64,000 nt of DNA from the NCBI GenBank assembly GCA_039640505.1, contig CP046865.1, forward strand, positions 1,178,001 through 1,242,000, written 5' to 3'. This document shows positions 23,939-51,567 of the stretch, one piece after another; the first letter of the stretch is position 1; each line of letters begins with the position of its first letter. This DNA is from Rhodobacteraceae bacterium Araon29. Lineage in GTDB: Bacteria > Pseudomonadota > Alphaproteobacteria > Rhodobacterales > Rhodobacteraceae. Under the pieces are notes generated by a model. It made no database searches. It saw only the letters and a list, made by a program, of their open reading frames with translations, and had not been told where the DNA came from. The position numbers and the translations under genes were made by a program.

Positions 23939-26914
23939 TTATTTTCCTTTAAGGCTCAGCGCGTCATTGATCAGCGCGTCATTGATCAGCGCTTCTTGTT
24001 GGGCTTTGTGCTGGGCGGCTAGGCCGGTGGCAGTGGAAGCGCTGGCGGCGCGTCCCACATAGACCGGCCGGCTGTGTTTGGCCTTCATCCGGCTCAGAAC
24101 CCATTCCAAATTTGGCTCCATAAAGGTCCAGGCCCCCTGATTTTTGGGCTCTTCCTGACACCAGATCATTTCAGCCTGCGAAAAGCGTTCCAGCTCTTTG
24201 AGGGCCGAGATCGCCGGGAAGGGGTAGTATTGTTCAAAGCGCATCAGATAAATATCGTCGATGCTGCGTGCATCGCGCTCTTCAAGCAGGTCATAATAAA
24301 CTTTGCCAGCACACATCACCACACGTTTGATTTTTTTGTCATCCACCAACTTGGTTGTTGAGCTGCCTTTTTGAGCATCATCCCAAAGCACCCGGTGAAA
24401 CGAGGACCCGTTGGTAAAATCATCGACCGTTGACACTGCCCTTTTATGGCGCAAAAGCGATTTAGGGGTCATCAGAATAAGCGGTTTTCGAAAATTGCGG
24501 TGCATTTGTCGCCGCAGGATATGAAAATAATTCGCCGGGGTGGTGCAATTGGCCACGATCCAGTTGTCTTGCCCGCACATTTGTAGAAAACGCTCAAGCC
24601 GGGCAGAGCTGTGCTCAGGCCCCTGGCCTTCGTAGCCGTGCGGCAAAAGCACAACCAAACCCGACATGCGCAGCCATTTGCTTTCGCCGGAACTGATGAA
24701 CTGATCAAACATGATCTGCGCCCCATTGGCAAAATCACCAAATTGGGCTTCCCAAAGGGTAAGCGCATTGGGTTCGGCAAGCGAATAGCCATATTCAAAG
24801 CCTAACACCGCGTATTCGGACAGCATCGAGTCGATCACCTCATACTGTTCTTGCCCCTCGCGGATTGTGTTTAGGGGGTAATAGCGTTCTTCGGTGTCCT
24901 GATTGATCAGACCCGAATGGCGTTGGCTAAAAGTGCCGCGAGTACTGTCTTGACCGGACAGCCGCACCGGATAGCCTTCGGTGAGCAACGAGCCAAAGGC
25001 CAGCGCTTCGCCAGTGGCCCAGTCAAAACCAGCCCCTTCGGCAAACATTTTCTGCCGCGCCCCGAGCAGCCGCGCGATGGTTTTATGCAGGGGAAACCCA
25101 TCTGTAACCCGGGTTAGCGCAGTGCCAATTTCAGCCATAAGGTCGGTTGAGATTGAGGTTTTGCCGCGCTGATAATCTTCGCCGCGTTTATCAAGATGCG
25201 ACCACCGTCCATCAAGCCAGTCAGCTTTGTTGGGTTTGTAATCTTTACCAGCCTCAAATTCATCGTTCATACGTGCCTGAAACGTGGCTTTCATATCTTC
25301 AATTTCGCCTTCGGGGATCAGCCCGTCTTTGACCAGCCGTTCGGTATAAAGCGAAAGCGTGGTTTTTTGGCGTTTGATTTTGTTGTACATAATCGGGTTG
25401 GTAAACATCGGCTCATCGCCTTCGTTATGTCCAAACCGGCGGTAGCAGAATATATCGATGACCACATCTTTGTGGAATTTCTGGCGAAACTCGGTGGCGA
25501 CTTTGGCCGCATGCACAACCGCTTCGGGGTCGTCGCCGTTGACATGGAAAATCGGCGCTTCCACCATCAAAGCGATATCGGTGGGATAGGGCGAAGAGCG
25601 GCTAAAATGCGGCGCCGTAGTAAACCCGATCTGATTGTTGACAACCACATGCATGGTGCCGCCGGTGCGGTGGCCAAGCAACCCAGAAAGCCCAAAACAT
25701 TCGGCCACAACGCCCTGACCGGCAAAGGCGGCATCGCCATGCAGCAGCAGGGGCATCACTTTGGTGCGGTCATCATCGCCAAGCTGTTGCTGTTTGGCGC
25801 GCACTTTGCCAATCACCACTGGATTCACTGCTTCTAGATGGCTTGGGTTAGCGGTCAGTGACAGATGCACAGTATTGTCGTCAAAGGCGCGATCGGATGA
25901 GGCGCCAAGGTGGTATTTCACATCGCCCGATCCGTCGACATCTTCGGGTTTGAACGAGCCGCCTTGGAATTCGTTAAAGATGGCGCGGTAAGGTTTCTGC
26001 ATCACATTGGCAAGCACTGATAAACGGCCGCGATGCGGCATGCCGATGATAATCTCTCTGACCCCGAGCGCACCGCCGCGCTTGATGATCTGTTCCAGTG
26101 CCGGAATAAGGCTTTCGCCGCCATCAAGGCCAAACCGTTTGGTGCCCATGTATTTGACATGAAGGAATTTTTCAAAACCTTCGGCCTCGACCATCTTATT
26201 CAGGATTGCTTTGCGGCCTTCACGGGTAAAGGTGATTTCCTTGTCAAAGCCTTCGATGCGCTCTTTCAGCCATGCTGATTGTTCTGGGTCGGATATATGC
26301 ATGTATTGCAGGGCAAAAGTGCCGCAATAGGTGCGTTTGACGATGTCTATGATCTGCCGCATGGTGGCAATCTGCAGCCCAAGTACATTGTCGATAAAAA
26401 TCGGCCGGTCCATGTCGGCATCGGCAAAGCCGTAGGTTTGTGGATCAAGCTCGGGGTGTTTGGTTTTTTCACGCATCCCCAGCGGATCAAGATCGGCGGC
26501 CAGATGGCCACGAATGCGGTAGGCGCGAATAATCATCAAGGCGCGTATACTGTCCAGAACCGCCCTCTTGATAGCATCATCACTAACTTCTGCGCCCGTT
26601 TCGGCCGCTTTGTCCGCAATCTTTTTCCCAGCCCCCTGTGCCTCGGCAGGCGCGGGCCACATGCCATCTAAGGCGGCGGTCAACTCGTCATCGGGTTGCG
26701 GCGGCCAGTCGCTGCGCGCCCATGAAGGGCCTTGGGCCTCTTTTTTGACATCCAGTTCTGCATCGCCAAGGGACGCGAAAAACTCAGCCCAAGCCGCGTC
26801 TACTGCCGCAGGGTCGTTGGCATATTGCGCATAAAGCTGCTCAAGATATTCAGCGTTATGGCCCTGCATAAAGCTAGAGGCATGAAATTGCGCATTTGGG
26901 GATTGATCGGTCAT
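23939..26914 (-). CDS. sucA: 2-oxoglutarate dehydrogenase E1 component
   Basis: SucA is the thiamine-diphosphate enzyme that decarboxylates 2-oxoglutarate. The 991-residue length and N-terminal [21 protein letters not shown] motif are typical. The [14 protein letters not shown] segment, the thiamine-diphosphate binding region with [14 protein letters not shown], and the transketolase-like domain with [19 protein letters not shown] follow in order. The last residues contain a short repeat ([12 protein letters not shown]) encoded by a 15-bp DNA repeat. The ATG overlaps the stop of the DUF805 gene. Confidence 0.96.
23956..23992. repeat. 15-bp tandem repeat in the 3' end of sucA
   Basis: The unit TCAGCGCGTCATTGA occurs twice without change (23956-23970 and 23971-23985) and is followed by a partial third copy (TCAGCGC, 23986-23992). 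It is in frame and encodes the five-residue repeat INDAL at the extreme C-terminus of SucA. The pattern is what polymerase slippage produces. Confidence 0.9.
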
Positions 26915-28323: not shown

Positions 28324-29517
28324 TCACCCCTTTACCGCTTTGACGATTTTCTCTGCGCCGTCTTTGAGATTGTCGGCGGCAATGACATCAAGCCCTGAGG
28401 TGTTGATGATCTCTTTTCCCTTTTCCACATTGGTGCCTTCGAGCCGGACCACAAGAGGCACTTGCAGGCCGACCTCTTTGACCGCCGCTACCACGCCCTC
28501 GGCGATCACATCGCAGCGCATGATGCCGCCGAAGATATTGACCAATATGCCCTTCACATTGGGATCAGAGGTGATGATTTTGAACGCTTCGGTGACCTTT
28601 TCTTTGGTGGCGCCGCCGCCTACATCCAGAAAGTTGGCCGGTTCGGCGCCATAAAGCTTGATGATATCCATGGTCGCCATGGCAAGGCCTGCGCCGTTCA
28701 CCATACAGCCAATCTCACCATCCAGAGCGATGTAATTGAGGTCGTATTTAGAAGCCTCAAGTTCTTTGGGGTCTTCTTCGGTGGTATCGCGCAACTCGCC
28801 GATATCCGCATGCCGGTAGACTGCGTTGCTGTCAAAACCCATTTTAGCGTCAAGGCATTTTAGATCGCCGCCATCGGTCACAATCAAAGGATTGATTTCA
28901 AGCATTTCCATGTCTTTATCGGTGAACATCTTATAAAGCGTACCCATTAGGCCAACGCATTGTTTGACCTGTTTGCCGCTAAGCCCCAACATGAAAGCGA
29001 TGCGGCGGCCATGATAGGCCTGATAACCGGTTGCCGGATCAACTGCGAACGATAGGATTTTTTCCGGTGTTTCGGCGGCCACCTCTTCGATGTCCATACC
29101 GCCCTCGGTCGAGCAGACGAAAGAAATCCGGCTGGTTTGCCGGTCGACGAGCAATGCTAGATAAAGCTCGCTTTCAATACCGGCGCCATCTTCGATATAA
29201 ATCCGGTTGACCTGTTTTCCCGATGGGCCCGTCTGATGGGTGACCAATGTCCGCCCAAGCATCTTTTTGGCTTCTTCGGCGGCCTCGGTGGCAGATTTGG
29301 CTAGCCTTACACCGCCTTTTTCGCCAGCATCGGCTTCTTTAAACGTGCCTTTGCCGCGTCCGCCGGCATGGATTTGCGCTTTGATCACCCAAAGTGGCCC
29401 GTCCATTTCACCAGCAGCGGTTTTGGCATCCTCTGCCTTTAATACAACGCGGCCGTCAGAAACCGGCGCCCCGTAAGAGCGCAGCAACGCTTTTGCCTGA
29501 TACTCATGGATGTTCAT
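28324..29517 (-). CDS. sucC: Succinate-CoA ligase beta subunit
   Basis: SucC provides the nucleotide- and succinate-binding part of succinyl-CoA synthetase. The 397-residue protein has an N-terminal ATP-grasp domain starting [16 protein letters not shown], with the [14 protein letters not shown] loop (about 51-64), and a C-terminal domain with [16 protein letters not shown]. It is the first gene of sucC-sucD-DUF805-sucA-sucB, and the paired GTGATCAC sites lie about 107-136 bp upstream of its ATG. Confidence 0.96.
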
Positions 29518-29623: not shown

Positions 29624-29653
29624 TGTGATCACACCTATAAAACTGTGATCACA
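29624..29653. promoter_or_regulatory. Paired TGTGATCACA palindromes upstream of the suc operon
   Basis: Two identical 10-bp palindromes, TGTGATCACA, lie at 29624-29633 and 29644-29653, exactly 20 bp apart. They are in the mdh-sucC gap, about 107-136 bp before sucC. The same pair, with 21-bp spacing, is found upstream of sdhC (36137-36167). Two-turn spacing suggests cooperative binding of two regulator dimers on one DNA face. I do not know the regulator. Confidence 0.7.
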
Positions 29654-29718: not shown

Positions 29719-30720
<1,002 letters not shown>

Positions 30721-35430: not shown

Positions 35431-36141
35431 ATGCGTTTAAAAGTTTTGGTTTTGGCGCTTGTTTTGGGCAGTGGCCCGCTCTGCGCAAAAGAGCCTTCTG
35501 ATGCCTTTGTAGCGTCAAATGTCGTGTCGATTTTATATCACGAGATTGGTCACGCGGTGATTGATTTGATGCGTTTGCCGATTTTTGGCCAAGAAGAAGA
35601 CGCAGCAGATGTTTTATCTGCGCTGCTGATCGATGAAATTTATGAGGAGCAATCTGCACAAAACACCGTAAGGGACGCTGCGTTTGGGTTTTATGCGGAA
35701 GCCCAGAATGTGGATGAACCAGCCTATTGGGATGTGCACGGCCCCGACGAGCAGCGGTACTTTAATCTGATATGCTTATTTTATGGCGGCAATCCAGCCG
35801 AGCGCGAGGATTTGGCGGCTGAGCTAGGCCTGCCAGAAGATCGGGCTGAGACCTGTCAGGAAGAATATGAACTGGCGTATGAAAGTTGGACACTCGTGCT
35901 AGACGATCTGGCTGACCTTTCGCATGAGATGGAGCTGATAGATTTTCCCGATGGCTTGATGGCGGATGTGCTGATTGATGAAATAATCTATTTTAATACG
36001 TTGTTTCGCTTTCCCGAGCCAGTTTCTGTAGAGCTGGTAAGCTGTGGAGAAGCCAATGCATTTTATGACCCCGCGAACGTCCTTATTACCATCTGCTCTG
36101 AATTTGAGGCCTATCTGCGCAGCCAGTATGAGAATTTGTGA
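35431..36141 (+). CDS. DUF4344-type zinc metallopeptidase, exported
   Basis: This 236-residue precursor begins at ATG 35431, or at GTG 35428 just before it. A signal peptide covers about residues 1-18. The zinc-binding HEIGH motif is at 37-41 and the following acidic stretch (EEDAADVLSALLIDEI) holds a likely third ligand. This fits DUF4344 metallopeptidases. The protein is acidic and probably periplasmic; the substrate is unknown. The stop codon overlaps the first GTGATCAC site of the sdh promoter. Confidence 0.82.
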   Translation: MRLKVLVLALVLGSGPLCAKEPSDAFVASNVVSILYHEIGHAVIDLMRLPIFGQEEDAADVLSALLIDEIYEEQSAQNTVRDAAFGFYAEAQNVDEPAYWDVHGPDEQRYFNLICLFYGGNPAEREDLAAELGLPEDRAETCQEEYELAYESWTLVLDDLADLSHEMELIDFPDGLMADVLIDEIIYFNTLFRFPEPVSVELVSCGEANAFYDPANVLITICSEFEAYLRSQYENL

Positions 36142-36167
36142 TCACGAAGGAAAACCATGTGATCACA
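36137..36167. promoter_or_regulatory. Paired GTGATCAC palindromes upstream of the sdh operon
   Basis: TGTGATCACG (36137-36146) and TGTGATCACA (36158-36167) contain the same GTGATCAC core as the suc promoter, 21 bp apart. They lie about 140-170 bp upstream of the sdhC ATG. The first site overlaps the TGA stop of the peptidase gene. A TTGACA hexamer follows at 36202-36207, so the sites would be upstream of a possible -35 element, as for an activator or an upstream repressor. Confidence 0.68.
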
Positions 36168-36306
36168 AAGTGGTTTTTTGTGGATATTCGCCCTAGATTG
36201 GTTGACACTTGGGTGGTTTCGCCGCTTAACAGGTATAACCTTTTATGTAGCCGATTAAATGCCAAGTCTTTGGTATTTTGCCAAACCGTAAGGAAAGGGT
36301 TCGTTC

Positions 36307-36690
36307 ATGGCTGATGTGAACCGGGGAAATCGTCCCTTGTCACCGCATTTATCGATTTATCGCCCGCAGTTGACCTCGGTGACATCGATCCTCACCAGGA
36401 TCACTGGCAATGCGTTGCTTTTAGGCGCGCTTTTGGTGGTTTATTGGCTGTTGGCTGCGTCCACCTCAGCAGAGTATTTCGCTCTGGCCAATTGGGTCAT
36501 GACAAGCCTGTTTGGTAAACTGGTCATGCTTGGATCAATCTGGGCGCTTTGGTATCACACTTTGGCGGGCGTACGGCACCTTATATGGGACAACGCCATG
36601 GGGCTAGAGCTGCCTGTGGCCTATCGGCTGGGCTGGGCGGTGGTAATTGGATCTTTCGTGCTTACTGCACTCACCGTTATCGTGCTTTAG
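36307..36690 (+). CDS. sdhC: Succinate dehydrogenase cytochrome b556 subunit
   Basis: SdhC is one of the two membrane anchors of complex II and helps bind haem b and ubiquinone. The 127-residue protein has the N-terminal RPLSPHLSIYRPQLTSVTSI motif, typical of SdhC, and three membrane helices. The likely haem-ligand His is in LWYHTLAGVRHLIWD (about 81-95). AAGGAAAGGG lies upstream of ATG. It is the first gene of the sdh operon. Confidence 0.95.
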   Translation: MADVNRGNRPLSPHLSIYRPQLTSVTSILTRITGNALLLGALLVVYWLLAASTSAEYFALANWVMTSLFGKLVMLGSIWALWYHTLAGVRHLIWDNAMGLELPVAYRLGWAVVIGSFVLTALTVIVL

Positions 36691-37085: not shown

Positions 37086-38888
37086 ATGAGCTATAGTTAT
37101 GAAACCCATGAATATGACGTTGTCGTTGTTGGCGCTGGGGGCGCAGGATTGCGCGCGACCTTGGGAATGGCAGAACAAGGCCTGCGCACTGCTTGCGTCA
37201 CAAAAGTGTTTCCGACACGTTCGCACACTGTAGCTGCGCAAGGCGGTATTGCGGCCTCCTTATCGAATATGGGGCCGGATAATTGGCAGTGGCACATGTA
37301 TGATACTGTGAAAGGCTCAGATTGGCTCGGTGATACTGATGCGATGGAATACCTTGCCCGCGAAGCTCCAAAAGCTGTTTATGAGCTCGAGCACTATGGT
37401 GTTCCGTTTTCTCGGACCGAAGAAGGCAAAATCTATCAGCGGCCCTTTGGTGGGCATACGACTGATTTTGGAGAGGGACCGGCAGTTCAAAGAACATGTG
37501 CTGCAGCAGATCGAACAGGTCATGCTATTCTCCATACGCTTTACGGTCAGTCGTTAAAGAATAACGCGGAATTCTATATTGAATATTTTGCTATTGATCT
37601 CATCATGACCGAAGATGGTATTTGCCAAGGTGTTGTGTGTTGGAAACTAGACGATGGCACGATGCACGTTTTTAATGCCAAAATGGTTGTTTTGGCTACT
37701 GGTGGCTACGGGCGTGCTTATTTCAGTGCCACTTCAGCGCATACTTGCACTGGCGATGGCGGCGGCATGGTGGCGCGGGCCGGATTACCGCTTCAAGATA
37801 TGGAATTTGTCCAATTTCATCCAACTGGGATTTATGGATCCGGTTGTTTAATAACAGAAGGTGCACGCGGCGAGGGTGGATACCTGACAAATTCCGAAGG
37901 AGAGCGGTTTATGGAGCGTTATGCGCCGAACTATAAGGATTTGGCGCCTCGAGACTATGTAAGTCGATGTATGACAATGGAAATCCGCGAAGGCCGCGGC
38001 GTGGGCGCCGAGGGCGATCATATTCACCTGAACCTGTCTCATTTACCGCCTGACGCTTTGGCTGAGCGTTTGCCTGGGATTTCTGAAAGTGCAAAAATTT
38101 TCGCAGGCGTTGATCTTACCAAGGAACCAATCCCCGTTTTGCCAACTGTGCATTACAATATGGGTGGAATTCCAACCAATTATTGGGGCGAGGTTTTGGA
38201 CCCAACGCCAGAAGACCAGAATAAAGTTGTGCCTGGACTTATGGCCGTAGGTGAGGCGGGGTGTGCGTCAGTTCATGGTGCCAATCGTCTTGGTTCAAAT
38301 TCATTGATTGACCTCGTTGTTTTTGGACGTGCCTCGGCTATCAGAGCGGGTAGCGTAGTGGATCGCAAAGCGCCATCAATGTCATTAGACAATAACCAAA
38401 TTGACAAAGTTTTTGGGCGTTTTGATGGTCTTCGGTATTCGAAAGGCAAAACACCAACAGCAGATTTACGCCTTGAAATGCAAAAGACGATGCAATCAGA
38501 CGCAGCAGTTTTTAGAGCAAAAGATACCCTCGCACATGGGCTTGAGAAAATGAAATCCATAGCCAAAAAGGAAGATGACCTTAAAGTGACAGATACTTCA
38601 ATGGTCTGGAACAGCGATCTCATGGAAACGCTTGAGTTAACGAATTTGTTGCCCAATGCGTTGTCGACTATTGCTGCTGCAGAGGCACGCAAAGAAAGCC
38701 GTGGAGCACACGCTCATGAGGACTTTAAAGAACGAGATGATGAAAGTTGGCGTAAACACTCTTTGGCATCTGTCATGGGGCACAATATTAATCTGTCCTA
38801 CAGGTCTGTAATTATGGAGCGTCTCACGGATGAAGCACAAGGTGGAATACCGTTAGAAAGAATAGCCCCAAAGGTTCGCACATTTTAA
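37086..38888 (+). CDS. sdhA: Succinate dehydrogenase flavoprotein subunit
   Basis: SdhA oxidises succinate to fumarate using covalently bound FAD. The 600-residue protein has the N-terminal [12 protein letters not shown] motif (about 17-25), the FAD-linking His in SHTVAAQGG (about 46-54), and the active-site region [21 protein letters not shown] (about 242-262). The C-terminal helical domain is complete. Several parts of the gene look AT-richer than sdhB and other neighbours. The following gene is a sulfotransferase, not sdhB. Confidence 0.96.
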
Positions 38889-38903
38889 TTGTAAAGGCGC
38901 GTG

Positions 38904-39773
38904 ATGGTAGAGGCTGATATCCGGCTATTGGGTCTAGTGACCCACCATAAATGCGGCACGGTCTGGATGCAGCAGGTGGTGGCGGGTCTAAAGCGGCTTT
39001 TGGGCTATCCGATTGTTGGCGTATGGTCCGACAAGCAACGCGCAAATATCCCCAAATCAGGACCTGCCTTTTTGGTGAATTGGAACGGTTGGCTGCCTTT
39101 CGATCTGTGGGAGCGCAAAGATTTTGCAGTGCTGCATCTGACCCGTGATCCACGTGATGTGCTGCTGTCCGGATGCCAATATCATCATGTCGCCCCCAAA
39201 AAAGGCGAGGCTTTCCTGCATACACCGCGCGCAGATCTCGGCGGTAAAACCTATCAAGCCCATTTGTGCGATATCGAAAGCTACGAAGATAAGTTACTGT
39301 TTGAAATGCGTGAAAAACATGCGTTGACACTTGCCGAAATGCTGCAGTTTCCAAAAGGCCATCGCTCTAATTACGAACTGCGCTACGAGACGCTGATCAA
39401 TGACACCGAACAGGATGAGATGCGTTCGGCCTTTCAGCATTGGAATTTGGACGAAAAAGCCACAAAAGACGCACTGGCCGTCGTATGGCAGACGAGCCTT
39501 TTTGGTTCGTTTAAAACCTTTGAGGACCGACCGCAGCAGGTGCGCAGCCATGTTTTTTCCGGGGCCGCGCGGCGCTGGCAAAACGAGTTGCCGCAGGCGG
39601 TTGGAAAAATTTATGCCCAAGAGTTTGGAAATGCCTTGATTGAGCTGGGTTATGAAACAGATACCAAATGGGTGGATAGGCTACCGGTTGATCCGGTGCC
39701 CTTTAATTTACCCGACCCAATGGACGACCCGTCTGCAATCGATGACGCCGCAGACGCGCAACTGAGTAGGTGA
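38904..39773 (+). CDS. Sulfotransferase-like protein inside the sdh operon
   Basis: This 289-residue protein (ATG 38904; GTG 38901 is an alternative) shows PAPS-dependent sulfotransferase motifs: the 5'-phosphosulfate loop HHKCGTVWM (about 14-22) and the 3'-phosphate motif [12 protein letters not shown] (about 80-92). Residues 155-210 give a typical C-terminal helical part. It should move a sulfuryl group to an unknown acceptor. It is located between sdhA and sdhB with gaps of only 15 and 4 bp, so it should be co-transcribed with complex II genes, which is unusual. Confidence 0.82.
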
Positions 39774-39777
39774 TGAA

Positions 39778-40557
39778 ATGGTACAATTGACGCTTCCGAA
39801 AAATTCCCGCATCCGCAGGGGTAAAACCTGGCCAAAGCCGGACGGTGCCACCAACCTGCGAAAATTTAGCATTTACCGCTGGTCGCCCGATGATGGCGAA
39901 AATCCGCGGGTTGATACCTATTTCGTTGATATGGACACCTGCGGGCCGATGGTTCTGGATGCGTTGATCAAGATCAAAAACGAAATTGATCCGACCCTGA
40001 CCTTTCGCCGGTCGTGCCGAGAGGGCATCTGCGGCTCTTGCGCAATGAATATTGATGGCATTAACACGCTGGCCTGTATTTACGGCATGGATGAGATTAA
40101 AGGCGATGTGAAAATCTACCCGCTGCCGCACATGCCGGTGGTCAAAGACCTTATTCCCGATCTGACGCATTTTTATGCCCAGCACGCCAGCATCATGCCT
40201 TGGCTTGAAACCAAAACCAACCGCCCGGCCAAAGAGTGGAGGCAATCCATCGATGATCGCAAAAAGCTTGACGGGCTTTATGAATGTGTGATGTGCGCGT
40301 CTTGCTCGACATCATGTCCGTCCTATTGGTGGAATGGGGATCGATATCTGGGGCCGGCGGCGCTGCTGCACGCCTATCGCTGGATTATAGATTCGCGCGA
40401 TGAGGCCACCGGCGAGCGGCTTGATGAGCTTGAAGATCCTTTCAAGCTTTATCGTTGCCATACGATTATGAATTGCTCCAAAACCTGCCCCAAGGGGCTT
40501 AATCCAGCAAAAGCTATTGCCGAGATTAAAAAGATGATGGTCGAGCGGACGGTCTAA
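39778..40557 (+). CDS. sdhB: Succinate dehydrogenase iron-sulfur subunit
   Basis: SdhB carries electrons from FAD to ubiquinone. The 259-residue protein has the three cysteine clusters in order: [12 protein letters not shown] for the 2Fe-2S centre (about 81-92), [16 protein letters not shown] for the 4Fe-4S centre (about 171-186) and [17 protein letters not shown] for the 3Fe-4S centre (about 227-243). It is the last gene of the operon and begins 4 bp after the sulfotransferase gene. Confidence 0.96.
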
Positions 40558-40637: not shown

Positions 40638-41243
40638 GTGTCGGTACGTGCCGTAATATCCGCGTTTATGCTCTGCGCTGCCTGTTCAGGGCAAAGTGGA
40701 TCTTCACCCGCCCTTCTGCCCTCTGCTTTTGCTGGCTCGGGCACAGCCACAGCGGATGCCAGTGGCGCGGTTGATGTTGAGCTGAGCCATAAGACAAGCG
40801 GTGTCTACATAGATGAAGATGGGCTCGGATTTTCCTATGTTTTGGGCCTGCAAGGCAATGCATGGGCGGCCTATTCAGCGCTTGGCCATTGGACACCCCC
40901 GCCTGATCTACCCGCTGGGGGAAAGATAAAGTTCAACGGGCAATACGCGCTTGGCGTGCTGCGCAAGCAATCTCAGGGCGCGCCAGATGTCGAGCGCTAT
41001 AATGGCACATTTGAGTTGCTGGCCAATCTTGATGCCCAAACGCTCACAGGGGGCAATTCGGATTTATTCGTCGATGCCGGTATTTCGGGGTCAGACTTTG
41101 ATGGCAGCGTTGAATTTCGCGGCATGTCTGGTGCGCTGACAGGCAAGCTTTCGAGTGAATATGCGCAGGGCGCTTTTCAAGGACAATCCGACGCAGCGCT
41201 CTTTGCCGGTGGTTTTAAAGCCAATCGCCAAGAAGAAGAATAA
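40638..41243 (+). CDS. Lipoprotein with transferrin-binding-protein-like beta-barrel
   Basis: This 201-residue precursor starts with GTG and has a lipobox ending at Cys16 (LCAAC), so it is probably an outer-membrane lipoprotein. The C-terminal half (about 95-198) shows the pattern of TbpB-type eight-stranded barrels: NGTFELLANLDAQTLTGG, then GSVEFRGMSGALTGKL and a final GAFQGQSDAALFAGGFKA. The role in a Roseobacter is unknown; iron-transport function cannot be assumed. A promoter is probably in the 80-bp gap after sdhB. Confidence 0.72.
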   Translation: MSVRAVISAFMLCAACSGQSGSSPALLPSAFAGSGTATADASGAVDVELSHKTSGVYIDEDGLGFSYVLGLQGNAWAAYSALGHWTPPPDLPAGGKIKFNGQYALGVLRKQSQGAPDVERYNGTFELLANLDAQTLTGGNSDLFVDAGISGSDFDGSVEFRGMSGALTGKLSSEYAQGAFQGQSDAALFAGGFKANRQEEE

Positions 41244-43594: not shown

Positions 43595-44299
43595 TTAAGC
43601 CAGCGCTGCGTTGAGCGCGATCTCGACCATATCGCCAAAGCTTTTTTCGCGCTGATCCGATGGCAAGGCTTCACCGGTTTGCAAATGATCCGATACGGTC
43701 AGCACAGCCAAGGCCCGTACCCCGTAGCGGGCTGCCAGATTGTAAAGCTCGGCGGCTTCCATTTCGACCCCAAGGATGCCGTGGCGCACCATCTGTTCAT
43801 TCAGATCGGGGCGCTCGTCGTAAAACACATCCGATGAGTATATTCCGCCCACATGCAGCCCGACATCTTTGCCTTGGGCCTCGGCGACCGCCGCCGAGAG
43901 CAGGTCGTAATCGGCGCAGGGGGCAAAGTTAAACTCTTTGAAAAGACCACTTGAGGGGGTCGAAAGGCTGCTGGCGGTCATGGCAATGATGATGTCGCGC
44001 AGCTTCACATGGGGCTGCATGCCGCCGCAAGAGCCGATGCGGATCAGCGTTTTGGCGCCATAATCACGGATCAGTTCATTGGCATAGATCGACAGCGAAG
44101 GCATGCCCATGCCGGATCCGTGGATGGTGACCGGCGCGCCTTTGTATGTGCCGGTAAAGCCCAGCATGCCGCGCACCTCATTGACAAGTTTCGGGGCATC
44201 AAGAAAGGTTTCCGCTGCCCATTTGGCGCGGTATGGATCACCGGGCAGCAGAACGATATCTGCAATGTCTTTGGGCTGTGCACCAATATGGATGGTCAT
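43595..44299 (-). CDS. deoD: Purine-nucleoside phosphorylase, DeoD type
   Basis: DeoD cleaves purine nucleosides with phosphate to release the base and ribose-1-phosphate. The 234-residue protein has the hexameric PNP features: an N-terminal HIGAQ, the phosphate-binding GDPYRAKW (about 21-28), and the signature [14 protein letters not shown] (about 63-76). The catalytic Asp is in VSDHL near 204. GAGG precedes ATG. It lies 9 bp after the GNAT gene and 32 bp before the SHMT-like gene on the same strand. Confidence 0.95.
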
Positions 44300-44308
44300 T
44301 TTTGGCCT

Positions 44309-44743
44309 CTATCGTTGGTATTTTATAAATGGTGTCAGCGTGGCGATGTTATCATAAAGCCGCCGCGCTTGGTGATTGTCGTCTTGGGTAAGCCAATATA
44401 CCGATGGCGCGCCGCTGTCATCTGCAACTTTATAAACTTCCTCAATCAAGGCGCGGCCGATGCCCTCACCGCGTTGGGTAGGATCGGTATAAAGGTCTTG
44501 CAGATAAATCACGTCATTTTGGTGCCAGTTGTGCGGATGATAAATGTAATGCACCAATCCCTGCAGCGTGCCGCCGATCTCGGCCACCCGTGCGTTTTGC
44601 TGGGGGTGATCGGCCGAGGTCAGGCGCGCAAAGGTGGTTTCATAGACCGCTTCGGCCACAGTGGCGTGATAAAATGCGAGATAGGCCTGCCACAGCCTTT
44701 GCCATTGTGGATAGTCTGTAGCGGTCAAAGAGCGAATGTTCAT
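44309..44743 (-). CDS. GNAT family N-acetyltransferase
   Basis: This 144-residue protein has the acetyl-CoA binding motif A, QRGEGIGRALIEEV, near residues 92-105, preceded by the YLQDLYTDPT strand. The acceptor substrate is unknown; the family includes amine, amino-acid and antibiotic acetyltransferases. It appears to be the first gene of a minus-strand set with deoD and the SHMT-like gene. Confidence 0.85.
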   Translation of the reverse strand: MNIRSLTATDYPQWQRLWQAYLAFYHATVAEAVYETTFARLTSADHPQQNARVAEIGGTLQGLVHYIYHPHNWHQNDVIYLQDLYTDPTQRGEGIGRALIEEVYKVADDSGAPSVYWLTQDDNHQARRLYDNIATLTPFIKYQR

Positions 44744-44867
44744 GCGCGGGTTTCCTCGTAGCTTTGGACAGAGGTTAACCTAACAAATATGTGCTGCGCC
44801 AGAGGGGTAGGGCACAGAAAAATAACCCAATCAGGGCGACGGCCAAAACCCTATTGCATTCGGGGCT

Positions 44868-49947: not shown

Positions 49948-50166
49948 ATGACACATGAATGGATAATTGACGTTTTGCTAGACTTGCGCACCTTCGCAGC
50001 CAAAAACGATATGACTGCTTTGGCAGCGCAGCTTGATGATGCCAAGATGATGGCAATAATTGAGATTGCGTCAAAGACCGAAAGGCCGGCCGTTGACACA
50101 GCTTATAAAAATATCAGCTTACGAGCAGGCCCTCACGCGTTTGGAGCAAGCAAAAGAGCGAGCTGA
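49948..50166 (+). CDS. Small protein upstream of and overlapping luxR
   Basis: From ATG 49948 (MTHEWIIDVLLDLRTFA) the product has 72 residues; TTG 49921 is an in-frame alternative. The N-terminal 40 residues form amphipathic helices (MTHEWIIDVLLDLRTFAAKN, then MTALAAQLDDAKMMAIIEIA). I believe similar small ORFs precede luxR in other roseobacters, but that is from memory. Its end overlaps the luxR reading frame by about 74 bp. The function is unknown; a role in quorum sensing is inference. Confidence 0.55.
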   Translation: MTHEWIIDVLLDLRTFAAKNDMTALAAQLDDAKMMAIIEIASKTERPAVDTAYKNISLRAGPHAFGASKRAS

Positions 50167-50821
50167 TTTACAATCTGTTATTGAAGAGTTCTGCCACATT
50201 TTTGAAGTTGAGCATGCGGTGTATCATTGGGTTAATTCCAAGGGCGCGCATATGGGGGTTGGTACCTATCCACAATCTTGGATCAACCGATACCTGCAAA
50301 AGGGATATTTAAAAATTGATCCGGTGATTGTGGGCGGCTTTCAAAGCTATCATCCAATGGATTGGAAGAAATTGGACTGGTCCAGCAAACACGCGCGGGT
50401 GTTTCAAGCAGATGCAATTGCAAACGGTGTAGGCAATCAGGGTTTGTCAATTCCCCTTAGGGGGCCGCGCGGACAATATGCCTTGTTCACTGTTAGTCAC
50501 AATTGCGCAGATGATGTTTGGGCAAAATTCATCGAAAGCCGGCGCCGTGACTTAATTTTAATTTCGCATTATTTCAATAATAAGGCGCTTGAACTTGAAC
50601 CTGAAAAATTAGCGGATGTTGCTTCAGCATTATCGCCGCGGGAAATCGAAACACTCACGCTCTTGGCTATGGGCTATAATCGGGCCATGGTTGCCCAGAC
50701 TTTATCAATCTCTGAGCATACGGTGCGAGTTTATGTCGAAAGCGCCCGTTTCAAATTAGGCTCGATGAATACAACCCATGCGGTTGCCAGCGCGCTTAGT
50801 CGCGGTTTGATTGTCATCTGA
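50093..50821 (+). CDS. luxR: LuxR-type acyl-homoserine lactone receptor/regulator
   Basis: This regulator binds an acyl-homoserine lactone and DNA. I prefer TTG 50093, with AAAGG 7 nt upstream, giving 242 residues; TTG 50060 is the other option and no ATG fits. The N-terminal autoinducer domain keeps the family residues seen in YLKIDPVIVGGFQ and HPMDWKKL (Asp-Pro, then Trp) and GLSIPLRGPRGQYA. The C-terminal LuxR helix-turn-helix is SPREIETLTLLAMGYNRAMV followed by SEHTVRVYVESARFKLG. luxI is 113 bp downstream. Confidence 0.9.
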   Translation: MTQLIKISAYEQALTRLEQAKERADLQSVIEEFCHIFEVEHAVYHWVNSKGAHMGVGTYPQSWINRYLQKGYLKIDPVIVGGFQSYHPMDWKKLDWSSKHARVFQADAIANGVGNQGLSIPLRGPRGQYALFTVSHNCADDVWAKFIESRRRDLILISHYFNNKALELEPEKLADVASALSPREIETLTLLAMGYNRAMVAQTLSISEHTVRVYVESARFKLGSMNTTHAVASALSRGLIVI

Positions 50822-50850
50822 TCCCATTCTTCCCAACATTTTTAGACTGT

Positions 50851-50867
50851 TAACGGACCGCTCGTTA
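50851..50867. promoter_or_regulatory. Candidate lux-box-like inverted repeat before luxI
   Basis: TAACG (50851-50855), seven bases, CGTTA (50863-50867) is a perfect 17-bp inverted repeat about 68 bp upstream of the luxI ATG. A second short repeat, GCATA/TATGC, lies at 50894-50907. Lux boxes are about 18-20 bp inverted repeats at this kind of distance, but this one does not match the classical sequence. Confidence 0.4.
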
Positions 50868-50934
50868 GCTTCCCTAAGCCTTAATGCTTGTTTGCATAGG
50901 TTTATGCCTTCCATCAACGGTGAGGGCATAGCCA

Positions 50935-51567
50935 ATGTTGACCTATCTTTGGGCAAAACAATTAGCCAAGCGACCATTATTGCGCGATAGTATGTTTCGA
51001 GATCGTGCAGACCAATTCAAAACCCGGTTAAACTGGCAGGTAGACGTGGATCAAAACGGGTTTGAGAGGGATGAATACGATGCTCTTAATCCGCTTTATG
51101 TGATTTGGGAATCCCCGCAAGGCCTACATCAAGGGTCGCTTCGGTTGTTGCCAACCACAGGCCGCAACATGATAAAGGACCATTTTTCGCATCTTTTGGA
51201 TGAGCAAATGAAGGAAAGTCCCAAACTATGGGAGTGCAGCCGCTTTTGCCTTGCACGCCATGCGCCAAGGCAAGTTGCATCTAATTTAATGTTGGCAGCA
51301 GGCGAGGCAATGGTCGGCTTTGGGGTGATAGAGTGCATTGCCATCTTTGATCAGCGAATGATGCGGATTTACCGATTGCTTGGTGCACAGCCGCGCCTGA
51401 TCGGATCTTCTGGCACCGGCAAAGATTTTGTGGGTGTTGGAATTTGGAAGTTCACATCCCAAAACCGAGAAACGGTATCCCAGAAAGCAGGCGTGTCGGC
51501 CAAAGCTTCTGCGAAGTGGTTTGATCATGCCTTTGGCAGTACATGCCGGCAAGCCGAACTGGGTTGA
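50935..51567 (+). CDS. luxI: Acyl-homoserine-lactone synthase LuxI
   Basis: LuxI makes the signal from S-adenosylmethionine and an acyl-ACP. The 210-residue protein has the conserved residues at the expected positions: R24, F28, W34, D46, D49, R70, F84, E100 and R103, within MFRDRADQF, GFERDEYDALNP, GSLRLLPTTGRNM and LWECSRF. Acyl chain length cannot be deduced. It follows luxR on the same strand. The gene after it is a RecD-like helicase starting 54 bp later. Confidence 0.93.
   Translation: MLTYLWAKQLAKRPLLRDSMFRDRADQFKTRLNWQVDVDQNGFERDEYDALNPLYVIWESPQGLHQGSLRLLPTTGRNMIKDHFSHLLDEQMKESPKLWECSRFCLARHAPRQVASNLMLAAGEAMVGFGVIECIAIFDQRMMRIYRLLGAQPRLIGSSGTGKDFVGVGIWKFTSQNRETVSQKAGVSAKASAKWFDHAFGSTCRQAELG

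Follow-up and report, generated by a model that had tools for sequence, protein, structure and literature searches.

The DNA upstream of the succinate dehydrogenase operon of Rhodobacteraceae bacterium Araon29 (genome G000, 3.66 Mb) raises the question of why a short palindrome, GTGATCAC, stands there twice, and which protein would read it. In the 64,000-nt stretch of contig CP046865.1 analysed here (the window), exact copies lie at 36138..36145 (distal) and 36159..36166 (proximal), ahead of sdhC, their starts 21 bp or two helical turns apart. A second exact pair, at 29645..29652 (distal) and 29625..29632 (proximal), sits between mdh and sucC, with sucC below it on the minus strand; its start-to-start spacing is 20 bp, and 6,513 bp separate the two pairs. 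No strand is assigned to any of the four boxes. A sequence-only reading of the window had described both pairs, at 21-bp spacing before sdh and some 6.5 kb apart, and the coordinates bear it out; it had further proposed an unrecognised tricarboxylic acid (TCA) cycle regulon common to suc and sdh. As argued below, the pairs are very probably operators of AkgR, a transcription factor with GntR and FCD domains, which from the sequence evidence would activate sdh in helical phase, would activate suc by analogy, and would repress its own gene.

Twin boxes and a probable AkgR regulon

Seven exact copies of GTGATCAC occur in the window against 0.55 expected, and none of 100 shuffles contained seven or more. 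The three copies outside the pairs, at 1592, 27934 and 45371, are unpaired and fall within open frames (the PriA gene, a 293-aa frame of the suc cluster and a LysR gene), just as the sequence-only reading had stated. An exact search of the whole genome for GTGATCAC-N5..35-GTGATCAC returned the suc and sdh sites and no third pair; therefore, no other TCA-cycle gene in this genome carries one, and the suggestion that pairs be sought at the fumarase, aconitase, citrate synthase, isocitrate dehydrogenase and ethylmalonyl-CoA genes yielded none in G000. When up to three mismatches were allowed at 21-bp spacing, the genome offered 38 places, compared with 6 for the reversed pattern. The runners-up to the sdh pair were five places with two mismatches, the class whose context was looked at, and all of them lie in open frames of at least 300 codons.

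The motif is not new. According to PMC6365646, which cites Imam et al. 2015, GTGATCAC is a motif of the binding sites of AkgR, a transcriptional activator of Rhodobacter (Cereibacter) sphaeroides. In the same organism, PMC4344238 names the GntR-family protein RSP_0981 as the predicted regulator of RSP_0967-6, RSP_0965-62 and RSP_0974-6, that is, of sucCD, sucAB-lpd and sdh. G000 resembles this regulon in three respects: it has GTGATCAC as putative operator (motif from PMC6365646), it encodes a GntR-family regulator (G000:C1:260280-260927), and its pairs precede the succinyl-CoA synthetase, 2-oxoglutarate dehydrogenase and succinate dehydrogenase operons (target list from PMC4344238). The shared regulon proposed by the sequence-only reading is thus upheld and fits that of AkgR, but the label "unrecognised" fails, because both the motif and the target operons are already in print in these two sources.

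Two other systems are similar in part. PS417_07240 of Pseudomonas simiae, the regulator of a deoxyribonate cluster, is 32% identical to AkgR and has a conserved GTGATCAC upstream of its cluster, but it belongs to a different pathway, and its palindrome lies at -47 to -40 from the start codon of the regulator gene (PMC6365646). CceR (LacI family, RSP_1663) is a further predicted regulator of sdh in R. sphaeroides, along with other genes of central carbon metabolism, but its motif is GTT-N6..8-AAC (PMC4344238). Literature queries with GTGATCAC or the 10-mer TGTGATCACA gave nothing relevant by title among the matches listed. Nor did the literature searched, whose coverage did not extend to the original AkgR paper, yield a description of twin spacing, phasing or an autoregulatory box. 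The helical-turn distances from the pair to the sdh -35 element and the single box at the regulator's own promoter, both set out below, are therefore apparently new.

Distance from the sdh pair to its promoter

A promoter motif model was trained on 58 sdh upstream regions, comprising 57 loci and the window. It placed the -35 element, GTGACA, mostly 65-68 bp from the start of the proximal box, with further groups near 56, 77, 87 and 98 bp and outliers at 23, 25, 43 and 54 bp, some of which had low scores. Counted by pattern in 189 genomes, the distance from pair to -35 element was 55-58 bp in 24 genomes, 64-69 bp in 123, 74 bp in 2, 77-79 bp in 24, 85 bp in 1, 87-90 bp in 14 and 98 bp in 1, while the ranges 40-54, 59-63, 70-73, 80-84 and 91-97 bp were empty. 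The clusters near 56, 67, 78, 88 and 98 bp are thus roughly one helical turn apart. A period of 10.9 bp fits best, or 10.8 bp for the 66 genomes that remain without the main cluster, the Rayleigh figures for this phasing being calculated without regard to relatedness. Whole-turn shifts also occur inside a single genus, with distances of 66-67 and 78 bp in genus g13, 68 and 79 bp in g19, and 78 and 87-88 bp in g3.

These counts derive from two pattern searches that jointly span 40-101 bp, and their rows are pattern matches, not each assigned to sdh. The first matched 212 genomes, of which 147 were used; 3 of its 150 listed rows were dropped, these being second hits of G106, G199 and G113 at 69, 68 and 62 bp. 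The second covered the 80 genomes unmatched by the first and matched 42 of them, with 4 of 46 rows dropped (second hits of G220, G036, G274 and G002 at 74, 89, 89 and 90 bp). Only the distance of 62 bp among those dropped lies in an empty gap. Neither search matched 38 of the 292 genomes, G000 included.

In the mechanism that we propose, each 8-bp palindrome would bind one dimer, and two dimers, two helical turns (20-22 bp) apart, would lie on the same face of the DNA. From positions about 55-98 bp ahead of the sdh -35 element (43 bp in the window), and in phase with that element, they would aid RNA polymerase at the sdh promoter, which they may reach directly, in a manner resembling class I activation, or via a short loop. 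Activation of suc would proceed by analogy with sdh. The more specific claim, that AkgR is a distance-tolerant but phase-locked activator working as two dimers some 55-98 bp upstream, that changes in length survive nearly always as whole turns, and that it is also an autorepressor, is one that we favour with some reserve.

AkgR might instead bind the pairs and repress, either by blocking or by looping. GntR/FCD proteins are more often repressors, the position of the box in the regulator's own promoter suits repression, and the phasing by itself would also be compatible with a repression loop. However, the start of the proximal sdh box is 55-98 bp away from the -35 element, on its upstream side, and does not coincide with it, and AkgR is described as a transcriptional activator in PMC6365646. 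Repression at the pairs is accordingly considered unlikely.

The candidate regulator gene

The gene likely to encode AkgR in this genome, judging by its sequence, lies beyond the window on the minus strand, at the coordinates given above (L121, L143). Its product has GntR and FCD domains, and the closest solved structure by sequence is McbR of Escherichia coli (PDB 4p9f, E 1.3e-20). A regulator within the window was also sought and rejected: the genes scanned from sdhB to 46048 encode a DUF1989 protein, a SHMT-like enzyme, a purine nucleoside phosphorylase and a LysR regulator, and the frames at 40638-41243 and 44009-44761 gave no family match.

The candidate gene carries the box at its own promoter. 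Orthologues of it were matched 18 times, at 46-100% identity: in 14 cases the 150 bp upstream contain an exact box, and in a fifteenth a box with one mismatch; most of the box-bearing promoters have a single box. Of these 14, 12 (including G110 and G227) have TTGAC starting 18 bp before the start of the box, one has it at 17 bp and one has no TTGAC; in the one-mismatch case the distance is again 18 bp. In the candidate's own promoter, the arrangement is TTGAC-N13-GTGATCAC. The pattern TTGAC-N12..14-GTGATCACA was matched in 202 of 292 genomes and its reversed form in one; most of these matches were counted by pattern and not tied to a gene, and the sole match in G000 is the candidate's promoter. 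One GTGATCAC box extends over the spacer and the -10 region of a TTGAC promoter, the core of the regulator's own promoter, and this position suggests that AkgR may repress its own gene.

The position of the gene is also informative. In 7 of 15 pair-bearing genomes (G174, G055, G046, G010, G157, G282 and G261), the regulator gene lies 9-19 kb from a suc or sdh pair, and in L052 it is found about 2 kb past the frame taken as sdhB. This nearness agrees with the numbering of RSP_0981 and its predicted targets in R. sphaeroides (PMC4344238).

It could be argued that the pairs are bound by another GntR/FCD paralogue, L115 for example. There are 11 FCD-domain matches in G000, two of which were traced through 20 genomes, and an L115 orthologue is located within 10 kb of sdhA in L009. 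Yet L115, which served as the control, has a box within 300 bp upstream in none of its 17 matches, as against 14 of 18 for the candidate, and was rejected as the regulator on this ground. Furthermore, some 98 kb separate it from the sdh pair in G157, and in G261 and G282 it is much more distant or placed on a different contig. A paralogue is thus assigned a small probability.

A third explanation is that each pair forms an RNA hairpin, acting as a terminator or attenuator, and is not a set of DNA operators. The boxes can indeed pair as RNA, at -15.9 and -18.2 kcal/mol in the window. However, the Rfam covariance models gave no match in the window at the gathering threshold, which led to the rejection of a hairpin RNA family; most box-bearing regulator promoters carry a single box; and helical-turn spacing would be meaningless for a hairpin. 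In addition, the sdh pair would lie outside the transcript, because it is upstream of the predicted promoter. The hairpin explanation is therefore very improbable.

Conservation, exceptions and gene context

The pair is present in 287 of 292 sampled Rhodobacterales genomes, mostly twice per genome, and in 109 of the 113 genera sampled, while the reversed pattern occurs in one genome. A class-wide draw gave matches in 10 of 385 genomes, five of which belong to this family; the reversed pattern was found five times, in one genome. One of the five matching genomes outside this family, G437, also lies outside the order; in L175:992-1903, its twin GTGATCAC boxes closely precede a GntR/FCD gene, the product of which shares 26% identity with the candidate AkgR. 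That the boxes are a chance or general genomic palindrome with no regulatory role, as lone copies of GTGATCAC within genes might imply, has practically no probability when the pairs are unique genome-wide and kept order-wide in contrast to the reversed-pattern control.

At 57 of 80 named sdhA loci, a pair lies 600-1500 bp upstream, with at most one mismatch in every case and a start-to-start spacing of 21 bp (48 loci), 20 bp (8) or 22 bp (1). The T and A flanks of these boxes are conserved and the spacer is not; conservation of the boxes themselves says little here, because the loci were chosen by their boxes. Thirteen of the 23 pairless loci (L066, L067 and L072-L082, from Bartonella, Mesorhizobium, Stappia, Ochrobactrum and others) lack a pair throughout the locus, and the remaining 10 come from the other 67 loci, with L003 among them having too little upstream DNA. 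In Pseudorhodobacter and Cypionkella, triple GTGATCAC arrays with two consecutive 21-bp steps occur far upstream of sdhA (L046:356-405 and L069:483-532), probably on the suc side.

Third pairs are found in a few genomes. In G272, one (1959 and 1980 in L192:1615-3315) stands upstream of a CoA-transferase family III gene starting at 2056, and a single box at 1615 precedes a divergent CoA-ligase gene, a hint of a possible extra member and of a regulon extended in a few species. The third pair of L187 falls within an enolase-superfamily gene, while that of L190 adjoins a 397-aa frame of the same length as sucC; L189 also has a third pair.

Five genomes lack an exact pair (G232, G141, G231, G110 and G227). 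The regulator is without a match in G232 and has one of only 34% in G141; the sequence examined ahead of sucC and sdhC holds neither an exact box nor a pair in either genome, although G141 has one lone one-mismatch box at sdh. Regulator and pairs are thus lost together in two genomes, with an exception in one genus. In G231, the regulator is present at 71% and a one-mismatch pair lies at sucC, the side covered in that genome.

The assignment to AkgR accordingly draws on the sites, their spacing and conservation, the sdh phasing, the box at the regulator promoter and the absence of pairs from two genomes that have no close relative of the regulator. The motif, the activator role and the targets are taken from print for R. 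sphaeroides (PMC6365646 and PMC4344238). To these we infer the orthology of the G000 protein, one dimer per box, the contact with polymerase and the autorepression.

Several points weigh against this assignment. The model trained on relatives placed the predicted -35 of the window (TTGACA, 36202..36207, plus strand) with a low score and 43 bp past the start of the proximal box, some 2 bp away from a whole-turn position; the same model gives a weak -10 at 36225-36230 on the plus strand. Three of the 189 genomes (74, 74 and 85 bp) lie at least 3 bp off the main clusters, and at the suc promoter the model settled on no -35 or -10, for which reason the phasing claim is made for sdh only. Three of the 18 orthologue matches (L149, L150 and L157) have no box at up to one mismatch, the matches to TTGAC-N12..14-GTGATCACA in G174 and G261 are not at the regulator, and in 8 of the 15 genomes compared the regulator gene is either remote from the pairs (G000, G147) or carried by a different contig. 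G110 and G227, the single genus mentioned above, possess a 46-49% relative of the regulator with its own box, lack the suc and sdh pairs and have lone one-mismatch boxes at sdh; regulator and pairs can therefore part. RSP_0981 is taken to be AkgR, and the candidate's putative orthology to it was judged from gene position, through nearness in 7 of 15 genomes and L052, and from the own-promoter box. Binding and activation of suc and sdh by the candidate protein likewise constitute a sequence-based proposal.

Downstream of the sdh pair, the likely start codon of sdhC, read from the sequence, is at 36307..36309, followed by sdhA (37086..38888, family match TIGR01816) and sdhB (39778..40557, family match), all on the plus strand. 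On the minus strand, and each identified by family match, sucC (28324..29517) is the first gene past the suc pair, sucA (23939..26914) lies further downstream in the same direction, and mdh (29719..30717) is upstream. A 290-aa frame with a weak sulfotransferase-domain match separates sdhA from sdhB (38901-39773). About 9.5 kb beyond sdhB, at 50060-51567, is a LuxR/LuxI-type quorum-sensing pair, with a crotonyl-CoA carboxylase/reductase gene and a methylmalonyl-CoA-mutase family gene as neighbours.

Upstream of the sdh pair is a gene for a DUF4344 putative metallopeptidase, and its TGA at 36139-36141 does lie under the distal box, as had been observed from the sequence. The accompanying idea that selection has kept the site across a coding end found no support: when the two longest upstream frames were inspected at 54 loci of relatives, only 10 loci had one of them ending within the pair. 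The overlap is incidental, being true of the window but not general.

What emerges is a regulon tied to AkgR in nearly every sampled genus of the Rhodobacterales, the core of which consists of two TCA-cycle operons and the regulator itself. The whole-turn spacing of its sdh operators constitutes a natural experiment on how an upstream activator reaches its promoter.
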